Of a stretch of 64,000 bases of DNA, positions 1,174 to 41,984 are shown one piece after another. Positions within the stretch are counted from its first letter, which is position 1. Every line of letters begins with the position of its first letter. The stretch is taken from contig CP085323.1 of the NCBI GenBank assembly GCA_022870745.1, forward strand, positions 4,526,001 to 4,590,000. Reading direction: 5' to 3'. Below the pieces are notes generated by a model. The model searched no databases and was not told where the DNA came from. It saw only the letters and a program-made list of their open reading frames with translations. Both the position numbers and the translations under genes were made by a program. Source of the DNA: Silvibacterium acidisoli (GTDB lineage Bacteria; Acidobacteriota; Terriglobia; Terriglobales; Acidobacteriaceae).

Positions 1174-2610
1174 ATGCCCCCGAGCAAAAATGAAAGCAGA
1201 GTTCTGTCGCGAACGGACGCTCCGAGGGGGGCGCGCGCGCTCGAACGGAGACGGCCGCTCGAGACGGTGGGGCCAGACCCCGACGGACCGGAATGGGAGC
1301 TGGTTCTTCGTATTACTACAGCCGAGCGCTTTCAGCGTTCTGCTCTGCTGACAGACTTTTTGCTCTATATCACCCGGCAGGCGCTCACGGGAAATTCTGC
1401 GAGGATCAACGAACACCAGATCGGCATCCAGGTCTTCGGGAGGGAAGAGAAGTTCAATCGCTCGGACGATAATATTGTCCGCAACTACGCTCGCATCCTG
1501 CGATCAAGGCTGGATGAATACTTTCAGCGCGAAGGGGCACAGGAAAGCCTTCGTCTCCACATTCCGCGTGGGGGTTATCTGCCCGTCTTTTCGCCGGTAG
1601 CGGAGGCAGATGTAGAAGCTCCGGGCGAGCTTCCGGTGCGGAGGGCCATTTCCGAGAATTTACCTCCGCCAGCTGCGATTGTGCCGCCAACACCTGCGCG
1701 CCGTGTTCTGCCAGCAGGTGTCGTTTTAGCCTTGGGATGCCTGCTCGGTTTTGTGATCGCCTTTGCGCAGCCATGGAACTGGCACAGACTATTTTCTCCA
1801 ACGGCACATCGCAGCCATCTGTTCTGGCGGTCGATCTTCAATCCTGACCAGGATTCACTCTTAGTACCGAGCGATAACGGTCTTGTCACGTTGCGCCGCT
1901 TCGTGGGGCAACCGATTACGCTAAGGGACTACGTTAGCGGCACCTATATCAGCCCGGACGGTATCGATGAAGGATTGCATCAGCTATTGCACACCTCCGA
2001 CCGGCCTGATCTTTCTGTGCTTGGCGCCAAGATCCAGAAGGCCAGCAATAGCCTCTCTACGAACATTGAGGATCTCGATCTTGTCGTTCGGCTGAGCAGT
2101 ATTGCGGAAGTTGTTCCGGGCAGGCTGAGGGTTCGCGCGACCCGCAAGATCCAGGTGGACGACTTAAAGAACAGCAATGCTGTATTGATCGGCTCTCTCG
2201 ACGCGAACCCCTGGGTTTCTCTCTTTCAACCGCAGCTGAATTTCCAGTTCACGCCGGGCGGCCCATTCGGTAATTCGGCGGTCATCATGAATCGAGATCC
2301 CCGGCCCGGAGAAGCGAAAACATACGCCTCGATCACCGGCGACCCGGCGCTGCGTACTTACGGAGTAATCGCCTATGTGCCTAATCTTTCCGGCAATGGT
2401 CACGTACTCCTGATCGAGGGCATCAACGTTGCTGGTACGCAAGCCGCGGGAGAATTTCTGCTGGACCCTGCTCGCATGGCGGGCATTCTGAAGCGGGCCA
2501 GTACGCCAACTGGCCAGATTCGGCCATTCGAGGTGCTCCTGGGAACCTCAAGCGTTGGTACAAACTCTTCTGAAATCCGGATTTTGGGCGAGCGAATTTC
2601 GTCAGGTTGA
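1174..2610 (+). CDS. Membrane-anchored regulator-like protein
   Basis: The 478-aa product has an N-terminal domain (about residues 45-135) with the pattern FQRSALLTDFLLYI, INEHQIGIQVFGR, DNIVRNYARILRSRLDEYF and LHIPRGGYLPVF. This domain recurs at the N-terminus of bacterial signalling proteins, often next to TPR or cyclase-like modules, and resembles a winged-helix fold with its terminal hairpin. A proline-rich linker and one transmembrane helix follow (about 177-200, VVLALGCLLGFVIAFA). About 270 residues would then lie in the periplasm, with no motif I recognise. The layout suggests a one-component membrane sensor that may control the divergent receptor. DNA binding and ligand are inference. 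The start has no strong ribosome site, so the first 20 residues are uncertain. Confidence 0.8.
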   Translation: MPPSKNESRVLSRTDAPRGARALERRRPLETVGPDPDGPEWELVLRITTAERFQRSALLTDFLLYITRQALTGNSARINEHQIGIQVFGREEKFNRSDDNIVRNYARILRSRLDEYFQREGAQESLRLHIPRGGYLPVFSPVAEADVEAPGELPVRRAISENLPPPAAIVPPTPARRVLPAGVVLALGCLLGFVIAFAQPWNWHRLFSPTAHRSHLFWRSIFNPDQDSLLVPSDNGLVTLRRFVGQPITLRDYVSGTYISPDGIDEGLHQLLHTSDRPDLSVLGAKIQKASNSLSTNIEDLDLVVRLSSIAEVVPGRLRVRATRKIQVDDLKNSNAVLIGSLDANPWVSLFQPQLNFQFTPGGPFGNSAVIMNRDPRPGEAKTYASITGDPALRTYGVIAYVPNLSGNGHVLLIEGINVAGTQAAGEFLLDPARMAGILKRASTPTGQIRPFEVLLGTSSVGTNSSEIRILGERISSG

Positions 2611-2723
2611 AATCGGGAGAGAACACTTTATATAAGCATCTATAAGGATGCGGCGGCACACGCTTAAAGCTAATCTTCATTCCATCTGGGAAATTTCAGA
2701 TAGTGGGTTTAAGCTTGTGTTGC

Positions 2724-2954
2724 ATGCACGTGCGTTCTCGCAGCACTTCCTCGGCAGAGATCTTACAAGATTGCCTGGCTCGGGTCGAACACGCTCGCGT
2801 TTTAATCTCCGAGGCTTACGATGCGCTCTGTAAGAGCAAGCAGCTGATCGGCGAGACGCAACGCCGTCTTGCTGCGCCTCTTCCAGGAATGAATGCCGAG
2901 ATAAAGGCCGAACCGCTGCCGAAATTCGAGGGGATTGAGCGAGTCGCCAGCTAG
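2724..2954 (+). CDS. Small hypothetical helical protein
   Basis: This is a short reading frame of about 76 aa (83 aa if the GTG at 2703 is used). The middle looks like one amphipathic helix: ILQDCLARVEHARVLISEAY, then DALCKSKQLIGETQRRL. The end is polar and proline-rich. No family is recognised. The helical heptad-like pattern and the lack of a better frame argue for a real gene, but neither start has a clear ribosome site and an antisense frame of similar length overlaps it. Confidence 0.42.
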   Translation: MHVRSRSTSSAEILQDCLARVEHARVLISEAYDALCKSKQLIGETQRRLAAPLPGMNAEIKAEPLPKFEGIERVAS

Positions 2955-3006
2955 AGTGGGAAGACCGCAGCACGATGCAAATCAGCCGCGTAGAATTCTG
3001 AGGACG

Positions 3007-3056
3007 CACCCGCCTGGGCGATTGACGCTTCGGCGGGTGTAATCGTTTCGCCCAGG
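3007..3056. repeat. Two overlapping, mutually exclusive hairpins
   Basis: CACCCGCC (3007-3014) pairs with GGCGGGTG (3032-3039), and CCTGGGCGA (3013-3021) pairs with TCGCCCAGG (3048-3056). The two left arms overlap, so only one stem can form at a time. The site lies between the convergent ends of the small gene at 2954 and the sulfatase at 3089. The simplest reading is a terminator region for both. There is no U-run. Confidence 0.45.
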
Positions 3057-3088
3057 GCGCGCCCTGCTGCCTGTCACACGGTAGGGTA

Positions 3089-4642
3089 TTACCAGGGCGT
3101 GTGGCGTACCGGCAGCGGGTCGGTTGTCTCGATCATCCGCGCGACAAGTTGCTGTAAGAGCATTTGCTGCGTGTCTCTGTGATGCGGGTCATCCCAGAGG
3201 TTTGTAAACTCGCCAGGGTCGTTTTGCAGGTCGTAGAGCTCGCCGCTTCGAGGTTTATCGACCAGGCTGAGCTTCCAGCGGTCTGTCCGGATCCCCGTCA
3301 GCATTGGCGGAATGGGGTAGGTTGAGTTTGCGTCGAGGAACTCCATGTAAACAGAGTCGCGGTGCTCCTTCGTGCTTCCATTCAGCAGCGGTATGAGTGA
3401 GCGGCCCTGCATTCCGGCCTCTGGAGGAATGCCTGCTGCTTCCAGCAGCGTTGGAGCCAGGTCGACCAGTTCGACCAAGGCATCGACTTTGATTCCGGCC
3501 TTGAAGCGTCCCGGCCAGCGGATGATCAACGGCACACGCGTCAGGCAATCGTAGAAGTATGGCCCCTTCAGATAAATGCCGTGATCGCCCAGCATCTCAC
3601 CGTGATCGCTCATAAAGATCACGATTGTGTTGTCGGCTTGCCCGGATTCTTCCAACACCTGCAGCATGCGGCCTACTTCGGCATCGACCTGCTCGATCAT
3701 CGCGTAGTAAGCGGCGGTAATCTGCCGGTGTTGCTCGGCGCTGGTCTTCGTGAAGGAAAGGTCATGGCCGCCGTATGCGGACTGATGATCTTCCTGCTGG
3801 AAGACGTTCTTATGATCGAGTTCACCCTCCCTGTAAGCCGGATCGGGCATCTTCGAAGGATCATAGTGTTCCAGGTATTGCTCGGTTGGATAGAAAGGAT
3901 GATGTGGCTGGAAGATATTCACCGACATCAGCCAGGGATTGAATTCTCTCTGCTGCCGCATGAAGTTGCAGGCGACATCGGCACACCATGCAGTCTGCGT
4001 GTACTTCGGATCAATCGGCATCCCCCAGACCGGGCCAGCGGGAGCCTTTGGGATTTTCACTCCCTGGCGGTCCAGCCATACGTACCATTGGTTGTGCAAA
4101 GGCCAGCTGTCGCCGATGTCGTGCGACCACTCGAATACCTGGTATCCGTCGTCGATACGGTCTTCAACGCGGCCACCGTAGCAGGGCGATAGATGCAGCT
4201 TGCCGGAGAGCCCGCAAGTGTAGCCGTTATCTGCAAGAATGCGAGTCACGAGCCGCTCCGATTCACGGATACGTTGTCCGTTCGCGCGTAGCCCCGTGAC
4301 ATGGGGATATCGTCCCGATAAGAAACTCCCACGCGATGGTGAGCAAATCGGTGTCTGGCAGAAAGTATTCGTGAAAGTTACAGATTCATCCGTAAGACGC
4401 TTCAGGTTCGGAGTATGGATCAGGGAATTGCTCAGCCCCTGGATCGTGTCGAAACGCTGCTGGTCAGTACAGATCCAGAGGATGTTCGGCATTGGTTCGC
4501 CACGGCTGTCACGCGCACGCGCGGGATATTGTTCGCGTTGCTGTTTGCTCGCGGCATTGGAGGTCTGCTGCGCTCCCGCCAGGTCGGCGCCGAGCGCTCC
4601 CGCGCTCAGCACCGCATTTCGGATCAGTTCACGACGATTCAT
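3089..4642 (-). CDS. Sulfatase, Tat-exported, Cys-type
   Basis: The 517-aa protein belongs to the arylsulfatase/alkaline-phosphatase superfamily. It starts with a Tat-like signal (NRRELIRNAVLSAGALGA). The sulfatase signature CSPSRGSFLSG places the residue converted to formylglycine at Cys100, with Arg104 at the CxPxR position. Metal-binding elements are seen at CTDQQR (Asp60) and FMSDHGEMLGDHG. Members hydrolyse sulfate esters, and maturation needs a formylglycine-generating enzyme that is not in this window. The gene lies 57 bp downstream of a large TonB-dependent receptor on the same strand. Import of a sulfated polymer fragment and periplasmic desulfation is therefore plausible. The substrate is unknown. 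Confidence 0.93.
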   Translation of the reverse strand: MNRRELIRNAVLSAGALGADLAGAQQTSNAASKQQREQYPARARDSRGEPMPNILWICTDQQRFDTIQGLSNSLIHTPNLKRLTDESVTFTNTFCQTPICSPSRGSFLSGRYPHVTGLRANGQRIRESERLVTRILADNGYTCGLSGKLHLSPCYGGRVEDRIDDGYQVFEWSHDIGDSWPLHNQWYVWLDRQGVKIPKAPAGPVWGMPIDPKYTQTAWCADVACNFMRQQREFNPWLMSVNIFQPHHPFYPTEQYLEHYDPSKMPDPAYREGELDHKNVFQQEDHQSAYGGHDLSFTKTSAEQHRQITAAYYAMIEQVDAEVGRMLQVLEESGQADNTIVIFMSDHGEMLGDHGIYLKGPYFYDCLTRVPLIIRWPGRFKAGIKVDALVELVDLAPTLLEAAGIPPEAGMQGRSLIPLLNGSTKEHRDSVYMEFLDANSTYPIPPMLTGIRTDRWKLSLVDKPRSGELYDLQNDPGEFTNLWDDPHHRDTQQMLLQQLVARMIETTDPLPVRHTPW

Positions 4643-39312: not shown

Positions 39313-39690
39313 TCATGCGGATGCTCGAGCAAGGGCTGATCCAGCCGCGACCGCTATAAGACCGACGACCAGGCTGACTGCCACATAGAGCATCCCCACC
39401 CAGAATGCACCGTGGGTGAAGTCCATCCACGTCTCCCATTCGAAGGTGGAGAAGGTTGAATAGCCACCTACGAATCCAACCGGAATGAGAAAGCGCCATG
39501 CTGGATTAATGTCGGTATGACGGTTCAGGAATTCAACGGAGAACCCAATGATGAGACACGCACTGATGTTGATGAAAAGCGTGCCCACGGGGAAACGTGG
39601 GCCGAATCGTTGCGCCGCCTGCGCTCCAATGAAATACCGCAGCATAGAGCCGATAGCCCCGCCGATTGCAATCAATAGGTATCGGTGCAA
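39313..39690 (-). CDS. crcB: CrcB/Fluc fluoride channel
   Basis: The 125-aa protein has four predicted membrane helices and the family's landmarks: GGAIGSMLRYF (10-20), GTLFINISACLIIGF with Asn41, and GGYSTFSTFEWE (75-86) with the Phe residues of the fluoride path. CrcB/Fluc forms dual-topology dimers that let fluoride leave the cell. It starts with TTG at 39690, with GGAGG in the overlapping end of the upstream small ORF, whose stop is two bases earlier. The operon is headed by a fluoride riboswitch. Confidence 0.96.
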   Translation of the reverse strand: MHRYLLIAIGGAIGSMLRYFIGAQAAQRFGPRFPVGTLFINISACLIIGFSVEFLNRHTDINPAWRFLIPVGFVGGYSTFSTFEWETWMDFTHGAFWVGMLYVAVSLVVGLIAVAAGSALARASA

Positions 39691-39691
39691 G

Positions 39692-39901
39692 TTACTCTCC
39701 TCCGGTTAGCGGCGTCGCAGCCATGTTTTGCAACTCAAGAATATCCTCTGCTGTATGTGCTTCCGGGAGATACGAATCCACGATTCGCCGTCCCGGCATC
39801 TGCCATGACCCAGCGGAAGATTCGAAGAGCGGTGCGGCCTCATCGGGCATTTCGCCAGCCCCGCACATTTCACAGGGGCGCATCAACAGATAGTTCTGCA
39901 T
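39692..39901 (-). CDS. Small CxxC protein in the fluoride operon, unknown function
   Basis: The 69-aa product begins MQNYLLMRPCEMCGAGEMPD and has one CxxC pair (Cys10, Cys13), as in a zinc or redox site, followed by an acidic region (SYLPEAHTAEDILELQNM). It lies between the fluoride riboswitch and crcB and ends two bases before the crcB start codon, so translation is probably coupled. The position makes it a fluoride-induced gene. I recognise no family, and it does not resemble the DUF190 proteins that often accompany crcB. Confidence 0.68.
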   Translation of the reverse strand: MQNYLLMRPCEMCGAGEMPDEAAPLFESSAGSWQMPGRRIVDSYLPEAHTAEDILELQNMAATPLTGGE

Positions 39902-39930
39902 GCGTGCTTACCTTTTTCTTGTGCAGGAGT

Positions 39931-39964
39931 AAAAACAGACACTCCTACACGAATGTGTAGGAGT
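39931..39964 (-). terminator. Intrinsic terminator of the fluoride riboswitch
   Basis: On the minus strand CTCCTACAC-ATTC-GTGTAGGAG is a 9-bp stem (39942-39963) followed by TGTCTGTTTTT. Its left arm overlaps the 3' half of aptamer helix P1. Fluoride binding to the aptamer should therefore prevent terminator formation and allow transcription of the CxxC gene and crcB. Confidence 0.88.
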
Positions 39965-40009
39965 CATTAGCGTCCCTTGCGGACGCGGTTAGGGCGAACT
40001 CCATCGCCC
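39957..40009 (-). promoter_or_regulatory. Fluoride riboswitch aptamer (crcB motif), minus strand
   Basis: On the minus strand the aptamer reads GGGCGATGGAGTTCGCCC, then TAACC, a hairpin GCGTCC/GGACGC, and TAATGACTCCTAC. GGGCG pairs with CGCCC as the pseudoknot and GGAGT with ACTCC as P1. These match the crcB RNA consensus (GATGG, UAACC and the AUGA before the 3' P1 strand). It precedes crcB, and the overlapping terminator shows transcriptional control. Confidence 0.92.
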
Positions 40010-40063
40010 ACAGCAGAAAGACATGCTTTGCTGAAAGGATGCAGCCCGCAGATGGCAGGATGC

Positions 40064-40092
40064 TTGACGCAAAAGCACAGCTCAGTTATAGC
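40064..40092 (+). promoter_or_regulatory. Promoter of the CLC-F gene
   Basis: TTGACG (40064-40069) and TATAGC (40087-40092) lie 17 bases apart. The start point would fall near 40099, ten bases before the plus-strand fluoride aptamer, which is ideal spacing for a riboswitch leader. Confidence 0.6.
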
Positions 40093-40108
40093 TTAGAACA
40101 TACCTTTT

Positions 40109-40169
40109 CGGTGATGGATTCCACCGTTAACCGCACGTGGGTATACCCACGCATGCTGATGACTCCTAC
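40109..40169 (+). promoter_or_regulatory. Fluoride riboswitch aptamer (crcB motif), plus strand
   Basis: The aptamer starts CGGTGATGGATTCCACCG, then TTAACC, a long hairpin with GTGGG and CCCAC arms, and GCTGATGACTCCTAC. The pseudoknot is CGGTG/CACCG. P1 (GGATTC with GACTCC) has one mismatch. The arrangement is the same as in the divergent aptamer 100 bases away, and the crcB-motif core bases are conserved. It lies directly upstream of the CLC-F-type gene. Confidence 0.92.
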
Positions 40170-40183
40170 AACTCTGTAGGAGG
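40163..40183 (+). promoter_or_regulatory. Ribosome-site-sequestering hairpin of the fluoride riboswitch
   Basis: CTCCTACA (40163-40170) pairs perfectly with TGTAGGAG (40175-40182) and hides the AGGAGG ribosome site (40178-40183) of the gene starting TTG at 40188. The left arm overlaps the 3' strand of P1. Fluoride should stabilise P1 and free the ribosome site, giving translational control. Confidence 0.85.
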
Positions 40184-40187
40184 CACT

Positions 40188-41984
40188 TTGCCCGAAATCT
40201 CGATTCGAAAGTCTTTCCAGGAACAGTTCCGGCTGCTCGTTGAGCTCGTGCGCTGGATTCCTGTCGCATCTCTGGCCGGTGTCATGGGAGGCGCTGCCTC
40301 TGCAGTCCTTCTCGCGTCGCTTACGTTAGCGACTGCACTTCGCGAACGCCATGTCTGGCTCGTCTTCTTCCTCGCTCCAGCAGGCTGGCTTGTTGGCCTG
40401 ATGTACAGGCACTTCGGCAAGTCCGTTGAAGGCGGAAACAACCTCATCCTTGAGCAGGTCCACGATCCGCAGGACGTTATTCCTGTACGCATGACGCCGC
40501 TCATTCTGATCGGTACCTTCGTCAGCCACCTCTTCGGTGGTTCAGCCGGACGCGAAGGAACCGCGATTCAAACCGGCGCTTCTCTTGCCGATCAGATGAC
40601 CCGGCCACTGCGCATGTCTCCAAGGGATCGCCGGCTGCTCCTCATGGCTGGCATCAGTGCAGGATTTGGATCCGTCTTTGGTGTGCCTATTGCCGGAGCA
40701 GTATTTGGCATCGAAGTCCTCGCCATCGGCAAGCTTAGTTATGACGCGATCGCTCCATGTTTTCTCTCCAGCTTCATCGGAGATCTCACCACTCGCTACA
40801 TCGCGCGCTATCTTCCGGGCGTACATCACGCCACCTATCGAGTGAGCGATATCGCTCCCATGAGCCTTGCAACGATCCTTTACGCCGGCCTCGCTGGCAT
40901 CGCATTCGGACTTGTGGGGATGGGATTCGCAAAGCTGACACATACTATCTCGCACACTGCCCGAAGATTCATTTCGCGCTCCGAACTGAGGCCTTTCGCT
41001 GGGGGCGCCATCGTCACCTGCGCGGTCTTCGGTTTCGGTGTTTCCCATACAGCGAAGTACATCGGCCTGGGCCTGCCTACGATTGCCGCAGCCTTCGAGA
41101 GCAAGCTGCCGTTCTACGATTTCATCTGCAAGTTTCTCTTTACCTCGGTCACGCTGGGGACTGGCTTCAAGGGCGGGGAAGTCACGCCACTCTTTTACAT
41201 CGGCTCAACGCTCGGTAATGCGTTATCCCAGGTCCTGCCCCTGTCTCCCTCTTTGCTTGCCGGGATGGGACTGGTCGCAGTCTTCGCCGGCGCAGCAAAT
41301 ACTCCTCTGGCCTCGACATTCATGGCATTCGAGCTATTTGGTGCGGAAGCGGGAGCCTATGCCGGCATCGCTTGTGTCGTGAGCTATCTTTTTTCCGGAC
41401 ATGCAGGCATTTACAACGCTCAACGGGTTGGAAAGAGCAAGCACATCGCCGCCGCCGCCGAAGAAGGTTTGTCTCTCGCTCTGGTCGCGAAATTACGGCA
41501 GGGTCCACAGGATACTTTCGTTGATGACCTCAATGTGTATGGCTATCTGGAGGGCAGTGATATGGAACACCTCAGCGTGTTGCGACTCTACTTTTCGGCT
41601 TCTGAAATGCGCCGTGCCGATTCCTGGTGGAGGCGGTTGGCTCCGCAATCTCTCGGCAGTTACCTGTTGCATCAGGCAAAGGAGCACGGTATTGAGCAGG
41701 CGCTGCTGCATCGCGTCATCGGTGGATATCTCAAGAATCAGGATCTGGCCCTCGATACCGGAGAAATTCCACCCTCGCGTCTCCCCCAGTGCCTCGAGCT
41801 CGTGGGCGGCGAAGAGGATCTGCAATCCTTCCTGAAGCACAATCGCGACCACCTTGGAAAAGTGCGCTCTGTCTTTCTCAGGGGCGAAGAAGCGCGGTAT
41901 GAAGCAGAGATCGAACGTGAGGAGCTCGAAGAGGCGCTGAAGATCGAGCACGATCCGCATTTTGCGGATACAGACGAAGATTAG
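40188..41984 (+). CDS. CLC-F-type fluoride/proton antiporter with DUF190-like C-terminal domain
   Basis: From the TTG at 40188 the product is 598 aa. The upstream GTG at 40137 is rejected because it lies inside the riboswitch. The membrane part (about 20-425) is a CLC transporter with GGNNLILEQVHDP (82-94) in place of the chloride-type GSGIP and with GREGTAIQTGASL, where Glu123 is the gating Glu. These are marks of the fluoride-specific CLC-F clade. Instead of CBS domains the C-terminus (about 462-568) has VLRLYFSASE, AKEHGIEQALLHRVIGGY and LPQCLELVGGEEDLQSFL, which fit a DUF190 domain. DUF190 genes often neighbour crcB. A charged tail ends the protein. Confidence 0.92.
   Translation: MPEISIRKSFQEQFRLLVELVRWIPVASLAGVMGGAASAVLLASLTLATALRERHVWLVFFLAPAGWLVGLMYRHFGKSVEGGNNLILEQVHDPQDVIPVRMTPLILIGTFVSHLFGGSAGREGTAIQTGASLADQMTRPLRMSPRDRRLLLMAGISAGFGSVFGVPIAGAVFGIEVLAIGKLSYDAIAPCFLSSFIGDLTTRYIARYLPGVHHATYRVSDIAPMSLATILYAGLAGIAFGLVGMGFAKLTHTISHTARRFISRSELRPFAGGAIVTCAVFGFGVSHTAKYIGLGLPTIAAAFESKLPFYDFICKFLFTSVTLGTGFKGGEVTPLFYIGSTLGNALSQVLPLSPSLLAGMGLVAVFAGAANTPLASTFMAFELFGAEAGAYAGIACVVSYLFSGHAGIYNAQRVGKSKHIAAAAEEGLSLALVAKLRQGPQDTFVDDLNVYGYLEGSDMEHLSVLRLYFSASEMRRADSWWRRLAPQSLGSYLLHQAKEHGIEQALLHRVIGGYLKNQDLALDTGEIPPSRLPQCLELVGGEEDLQSFLKHNRDHLGKVRSVFLRGEEARYEAEIEREELEEALKIEHDPHFADTDED

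Follow-up and report, generated by a model that had tools for sequence, protein, structure and literature searches.

Known fluoride switches and dual-level leaders

Among fluoride riboswitch sequences, 323 of the 1,901 tested switched transcription in vitro, and the available part of the same report also names translational controls (PMC13273304). The accessible text on the crcB RNA motif describes a terminator that overlaps the motif (PMC2864571), and dual expression platforms with the ribosome-binding site inside the terminator are known from the part available of PMC2258182. The locus described here resembles the RF01734 fluoride riboswitches in its aptamers, in a motif-overlapping terminator (PMC2864571) and in the occurrence of transcriptional and translational members (PMC13273304), as far as the available text of both sources goes. 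It differs from them in having two divergent copies with unlike platforms, one of which carries a further strand, strand C, after its U-run.

Four other systems come close; each comparison covers the available part of the cited text. In the platforms with a ribosome-binding site inside the terminator (PMC2258182), as in the ppa leaders described below, one aptamer could act on both termination and read-through translation; in the ppa leaders, however, the Shine-Dalgarno sequence (SD) sits in a separate hairpin past the U-run, and the shared strand C links it to the terminator. The B. subtilis trp leader with TRAP likewise combines termination with a separate SD-masking hairpin, but it is driven by a protein rather than an aptamer and turns expression off (PMC12288461). 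The Enterobacter cloacae FRM fluoride-resistance operon has a fluoride riboswitch ahead of ppaC, together with eno, uspA and crcB, and differs in having one riboswitch, one operon and a manganese-dependent pyrophosphatase (PMC5533749). The S. meliloti metA/metZ SAM-II riboswitches respond to another ligand; alike is that, within one organism, a single ligand is predicted to act on termination for one gene and on translation for the other (PMC9373788).

Our literature search, with subscription papers mostly outside it, returned no report of fluoride leaders with a third strand, of fluoride switches acting at two levels or of fluoride riboswitches in divergent pairs. Each of the two platform types has precedents, and what is new in the divergent pair is how known parts are arranged; the part most worth testing is the strand beyond the U-run.

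Two divergent fluoride aptamers and their exporter genes

The window, a stretch of 64,000 nucleotides from Silvibacterium acidisoli (CP085323.1, positions 4,526,001 to 4,590,000, forward strand), was scanned on both strands with cmscan against RF01734 (gathering score 34). Coordinates of the locus are window-relative.

39951-40017, minus strand: fluoride aptamer (crcB motif) of the crcB transcript (RF01734, 55.1 bits, E 1.5e-12)
40101-40175, plus strand: fluoride aptamer of the CLC transcript (RF01734, 44.6 bits, E 4e-9)
39313-39690, minus strand: crcB (Fluc fluoride channel), TTG start, GGAGGAG upstream (PF02537, 94.1 bits; TIGR00494 over cut-off)
40188-41984, plus strand: CLC-F fluoride/proton antiporter gene, TTG start (PF00654, 238.6 bits; 6d0j, E 5.6e-56)

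A sequence-only reading of this stretch had placed two opposed crcB-motif aptamers at 39957-40009 and 40109-40169. Both lie inside significant RF01734 matches that exceed the gathering score (55.1 bits minus, 44.6 bits plus, versus 34), each covering model positions 1-64, and the scores and E-values rule out a chance origin for both. A genome-wide RF01734 search at E up to 0.001 returned the window's two aptamers as its only matches. Baker et al. in 2012 are said to have named fluoride as the ligand; a fluoride response of both leaders is predicted here from the aptamer match.

The two exporters are unrelated, as had been proposed. CrcB scores 94.1 bits with PF02537 (cut-off 32.9) and 104.4 bits with TIGR00494 (cut-off 80.45) and matches Fluc structures, with 6bx4 as its best solved relative. 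The best solved relatives of the CLC protein are the fluoride/proton antiporters 6d0j, 6d0k and 6d0n (E 5.6e-56 to 6.3e-55), and its best chloride CLC relative is 1kpl (E 1.1e-10). By these solved relatives the window CLC is of the fluoride kind, and fluoride transport is predicted. Its residues 487-556 give a weak C-terminal DUF190 match (21.0 bits versus a cut-off of 23.4, E 4.2e-4). With two exporters, one ligand and two apparent control levels within 250 bases, transcriptional and translational fluoride switching become comparable in one cell.

The crcB leader: terminator, small ORF and strand C

The minus leader is composed of a terminator that shares a strand with the aptamer, a further complementary strand beyond the U-run, and a small open reading frame (ORF) ahead of crcB.

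39941-39964, minus strand: terminator hairpin with arms A (39955-39964, common with the aptamer 3' strand) and B (39941-39950), -15.3 kcal/mol
39931-39940, minus strand: tail GUCUGUUUUU with the U-run (terminator scan)
39921-39930, minus strand: ACUCCUGCAC, strand C, able to pair with arm B as hairpin 39921-39950 (repeat families D3 and I6)
39911-39917, minus strand: probable SD AAAAAGG of the small ORF (read by eye; little masked in the model)
39692-39901, minus strand: 69-codon ORF, ending 1 nt ahead of the crcB start (ORF list; coding-like codon use)

The terminator scan found one terminator-like site in 39850-40250, on the minus strand, where shuffles average 0.3: a stem at 39964-39941 with 10 pairs, a loop of 4 and the tail GTCTGTTTTT. 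The stem shares strand A with the aptamer, and the 69-codon ORF and crcB lie downstream, in agreement with the proposal that the minus aptamer overlaps a terminator with a U-run and precedes a small ORF and crcB. A strand common to aptamer and intrinsic terminator is the mark of a transcriptional switch; here a short run of 5 U follows the stem at a distance of five other bases. The whole leader folds 5.2 standard deviations below its own shuffles (0/200 as good). With bound fluoride approximated by making A and its pseudoknot partner unavailable, pseudoknot energy ignored, the modelled cost of opening the small-ORF SD goes from 1.9-2.0 kcal/mol in the free leader to 0.6-0.7 kcal/mol. In the folding model, the minus leader looks transcriptional.

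The 69-codon ORF might itself be the regulatory target, through its own translation, through coupling to crcB or as a leader peptide, and its position directly before the crcB start speaks for this, as does an in-frame codon-use score of 0.068 (negative in each of the other five frames; 0.080 for crcB; 5th percentile of in-frame windows -0.017). We consider such a role improbable, since the ORF was matched in 1 of the 120 genomes searched, its own, so that a conserved small ORF was not found among them, a search of Pfam and NCBIfam gave 0 matches, and the model leaves its SD almost unmasked.

Strand C, absent from the sequence-only reading, lies 3' of the minus U-run. A single base separates it from strand A (ACUCCUACAC), and it can pair along arm B with one G-U among the pairs. 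The B:C hairpin has -16.4 kcal/mol, against -15.3 for A:B in the same calculation (-15.8 for B:C in the comparison of 30 leaders), and the whole leader is nearly equal in energy with either (-50.2 kcal/mol with A:B, -49.6 with B:C). Once A is made unavailable, the best modelled fold contains B:C. A riboswitch model that ends at the U-run would miss this strand.

The CLC leader: Shine-Dalgarno masking

40064-40092, plus strand: possible promoter TTGACG-17-TATAGC for the CLC transcript (read by eye)
40163-40183, plus strand: SD-masking hairpin, CUCCUAC 40163-40169 with GUAGGAG 40176-40182, including AGGAGG 40178-40183 (fold and repeat family I5)

A rule-based sigma-70 promoter scan returned no promoter, the by-eye candidate of the CLC transcript included. 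The AGGAGG lies 4 nt ahead of the TTG start at 40188 and inside the CUCCUAC/GUAGGAG hairpin, which confirms the earlier description of a plus aptamer overlapping a hairpin that hides the SD of the CLC-F gene. The plus leader folds 3.4 standard deviations below shuffles (1/200 as good). Strand A pairs with the SD, as in a translational switch, and the modelled opening cost goes from 13.2-13.6 kcal/mol in the free leader to 4.5-6.5 kcal/mol with A and the pseudoknot partner unavailable; most of the SD still pairs with nearby sequence in that state. The plus leader looks translational by this model. Since the small-ORF SD is little changed and the CLC SD becomes much cheaper to open, the minus leader is transcriptional and the plus leader translational in appearance; modelled SD accessibility is thereby concordant with the proposed unlike platforms, a terminator on the minus side and SD masking on the plus side. 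The earlier interpretation of the locus, ligand control aside, is supported.

A-B-C-D leaders of ppa genes in Acidobacteriaceae

Strand C occurs at the same place in seven ppa leaders, where it is able to pair also with the gene's own SD (strand D). These seven had been found by RF01734 or a terminator pattern, without reference to C. In them, as in the window's minus leader, the U-run comes before both the SD and the start codon. A covariance model, R1, was built from the seven with the window excluded, and matched in 184 of 398 genomes of Acidobacteriaceae (E up to 0.001). Among the R1 matches listed, 54 exceed 50 bits, including the window's minus leader; matches at or below 50 bits with prior annotation are crcB leaders of the SD type. 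Within the window, R1 gives 59.8 bits for the minus leader, a gain of less than 5 bits over its aptamer score, and 38.0 for the plus leader. Because C:D is part of R1, its hits lean towards leaders with C:D.

From 31 ppa-tagged R1 hits, 29 ppa leaders were kept and joined with the window into a set of 30; the dropped hits were L286:1348, the first aptamer of a tandem, and L316, whose start codon was not found. L315, with no recognised A strand, was untagged as ppa. Compared with 120 terminator leaders listed from a broad contig scan, which are not a random sample, B:C reaches -10 kcal/mol or lower in 28/30 leaders versus 2/120, and z < -1.5 in 26/30 (mean -2.4) versus 16/120. The two comparison leaders with B:C, L196 and L206, are sequence-identical to stretches of the Acidobacteriaceae genomes G228 and G419, and this count excludes B:C as a general trait of fluoride terminators. 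The recurrence of strand C makes its chance origin unlikely.

Masking of the SD is also widespread in the set. The stretch from B to the start codon folds with z < -1.5 in 24/30 leaders, and at least three of five SD bases are paired in 29/29 ppa leaders by a rough script that takes the most AGGAG-like 5-mer, with wrong picks in L283, L303, L318 and L320. (For the window it chose AAGAA, not the likely SD, whose AGG forms a weak fold with CCU.) The SD-masking stem of L318 and L320 includes the U-run.

Alignment of the 29 ppa leaders revealed pairing at 99.1% for A:B, 90.9% for B:C and 85.7% for C:D, against 32-62% in slid versions. Shuffles reached the covariation score in 0/500 cases for A:B, 42/500 for B:C and 10/500 for C:D. 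Matched changes are seen in L303 (B GCAGGGC, C GGCCCCUGC, D GGGCC) and in L293 (C UUUGCC, D GGCAAA).

These figures bear on whether C was selected only for C:D masking, with B:C a by-product of an SD-like B where A is CUCCU and no B:C on-state. A strand C that masks D pairs with B anyway, because B is SD-like owing to the conserved A. Covariation of B:C is weak, its count of doubly changed pairs being reached by 226/500 shuffles; in the flank test, p is 0.10 when any standard pair counts and 0.048 when Watson-Crick pairs alone do, and C:D covariation is somewhat better supported. We nonetheless regard selection for C:D alone as unlikely: most leaders keep the three flank pairs, which lie outside the SD-like core (29/29, 28/29 and 19/29 ppa leaders), the window has a long B:C with little C:D, and without B:C an opener of C:D under fluoride is hard to name.

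The simplest reading, which includes a B:C on-state, has the ppa leaders act in series. Without fluoride, A:B would terminate and C:D would mask the SD of read-through transcripts; with fluoride, the aptamer together with B:C would leave D free, so that both steps are on. If this is true, a single aptamer would govern termination and translation alike by way of a shared strand past the terminator, and the ppa leaders would add such a design.

Proposed mechanism and the place of the window leader

The window's minus leader has the A:B terminator and the B:C complementarity of the ppa type, and its B:C z of -6.6 is the lowest of the 30 leaders. From B to the start codon it folds only weakly (-4.1 kcal/mol, z +1.1) and the SD costs just 1.9-2.0 kcal/mol to open, so C:D masking is slight and the leader is a relative of the ppa type, not a full member. 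The first codons behind it, MQNYL, resemble ppa starts (MTNYL in L281, MVNYL in the ppa of the same genome). That ppa, at 2510455-2510982, is 61% identical to the L272 PPase, and the genome-wide RF01734 search placed no fluoride aptamer with it. We infer that crcB may have captured a leader of the ppa type that has lost its SD-masking step.

The locus is, in our judgement, probably a compact fluoride-detoxification unit with two divergent aptamer-led transcripts, termination for crcB and SD masking for CLC-F, in which the minus leader is kin to the ppa type. On the minus strand without fluoride, A would pair with B to form the intrinsic terminator ahead of the small ORF and crcB. With fluoride, A would be held in the aptamer pseudoknot and RNA polymerase would read through, after which B may pair with the downstream C, barring B from re-invading A. 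The C:D step appears weak, and the leader would act mainly on transcription. On the plus strand, A would pair with the CLC-F SD in the absence of fluoride, and fluoride would free it. The aptamers, the complementary strands, their recurrence and the computed energies are shown by the analysis; the order of folding and the function of B:C are proposed.

A plainer account takes the locus as an ordinary terminator switch on the minus strand and an ordinary SD-masking switch on the plus strand, with the window's strand C a relic or copy of A that has no present role. Both plain platforms are already described (PMC13273304, available part), C:D is weak in the window with the small-ORF SD open in either state, and C is transcribed after the U-run, too late for B:C to influence the usual decision to terminate. 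A functionless relic would be expected to decay, however, and none of the other 29 leaders has a B:C as significant as the window's; we hold the plainer account to be possible yet somewhat doubtful. The wider proposal, that Acidobacteriaceae evolved a serial two-level A-B-C-D switch and that the window's crcB leader is a captured ppa leader beside a translation-only CLC-F switch, has in our view an even chance of being right.

Platforms and divergent pairs in related genomes

A fluoride aptamer is present in 88 of 120 genomes, the window's own included, at E up to 0.001, and in 79/120 over the cut-off. A rough platform rule, applied to the 106 of 138 RF01734 rows above 34 bits, gave 43 SD, 9 terminator, 5 both, 48 neither and 1 without a recognised A strand. 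Terminator-like hits in the same family include ppa leaders in G003, G007, G041 and G047, a crcB leader in G011 (both) and the window's crcB leader.

The SD is hidden in 7/7 aligned CLC leaders (window, G001, G039, G042, G047, G104 and G156). The CLCs of G001, G039, G042, G047 and G104 are related to the window CLC at 4.4e-141 or better; for G156, SD masking was read by eye and the CLC assigned by Pfam. This lineup omits G064, for its weak CLC match (7.1e-12), and three R1 hits, L300, L304 and L311: there the closest long ORF begins more than 200 nt further on, and these leaders may work otherwise.

Divergent aptamer pairs occur in G078, G070 and G007, with RF01734 over the cut-off on both sides, and in G169 and G156, as R1 hits only with aptamer motifs read by eye; these pairs rule out a unique divergent layout. 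A candidate in G071 was dropped, as both hits fell under the cut-off (28.9 and 28.0 bits) and one of them had been misplaced. No second crcB/CLC pair was seen among the annotated relative loci. Among the genes at such pairs, a 42-residue ORF without a Pfam match stands behind a fluoride-type leader at L327 2291-2419 (G156), divergent from the CLC gene. At L034 (G078), the aptamer at 2212 is directly upstream of a dynamin-family gene (2281-4107), opposite the second aptamer.

Several relatives carry many aptamers, by RF01734 matches G007 (11), G003, G041 and G103 (6 each) and G070 (5), and by R1 matches G419 (9), G221 (8) and G259 (7). These aptamers are partly clustered and lie upstream of ppa, enolase, NADH-dehydrogenase-like, MFS and other genes. 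A further group of R1 hits (L300, L311, L314, L317, L324 and L326) has a post-tail CCUACC-like strand that complements the first part of B, GGUAGG; an SD or start codon is not close behind, and several tails are U-poor (by eye).

A protein of ~250 residues recurs behind fluoride leaders or ppa: L308 589-1338 scores 32.7 bits with AAA_16 in Pfam, barely above the cut-off of 32.6, and the proteins of L291, L270, L302, L322 (5759) and L325 (5667) resemble it by eye only. Tandem aptamers on one strand are found at L038 1518 and 1602 (G099), both over the RF01734 cut-off and ahead of a 390-codon ORF, and, as R1 hits, at L286 1348 and 1501 (G409), ahead of ppa.
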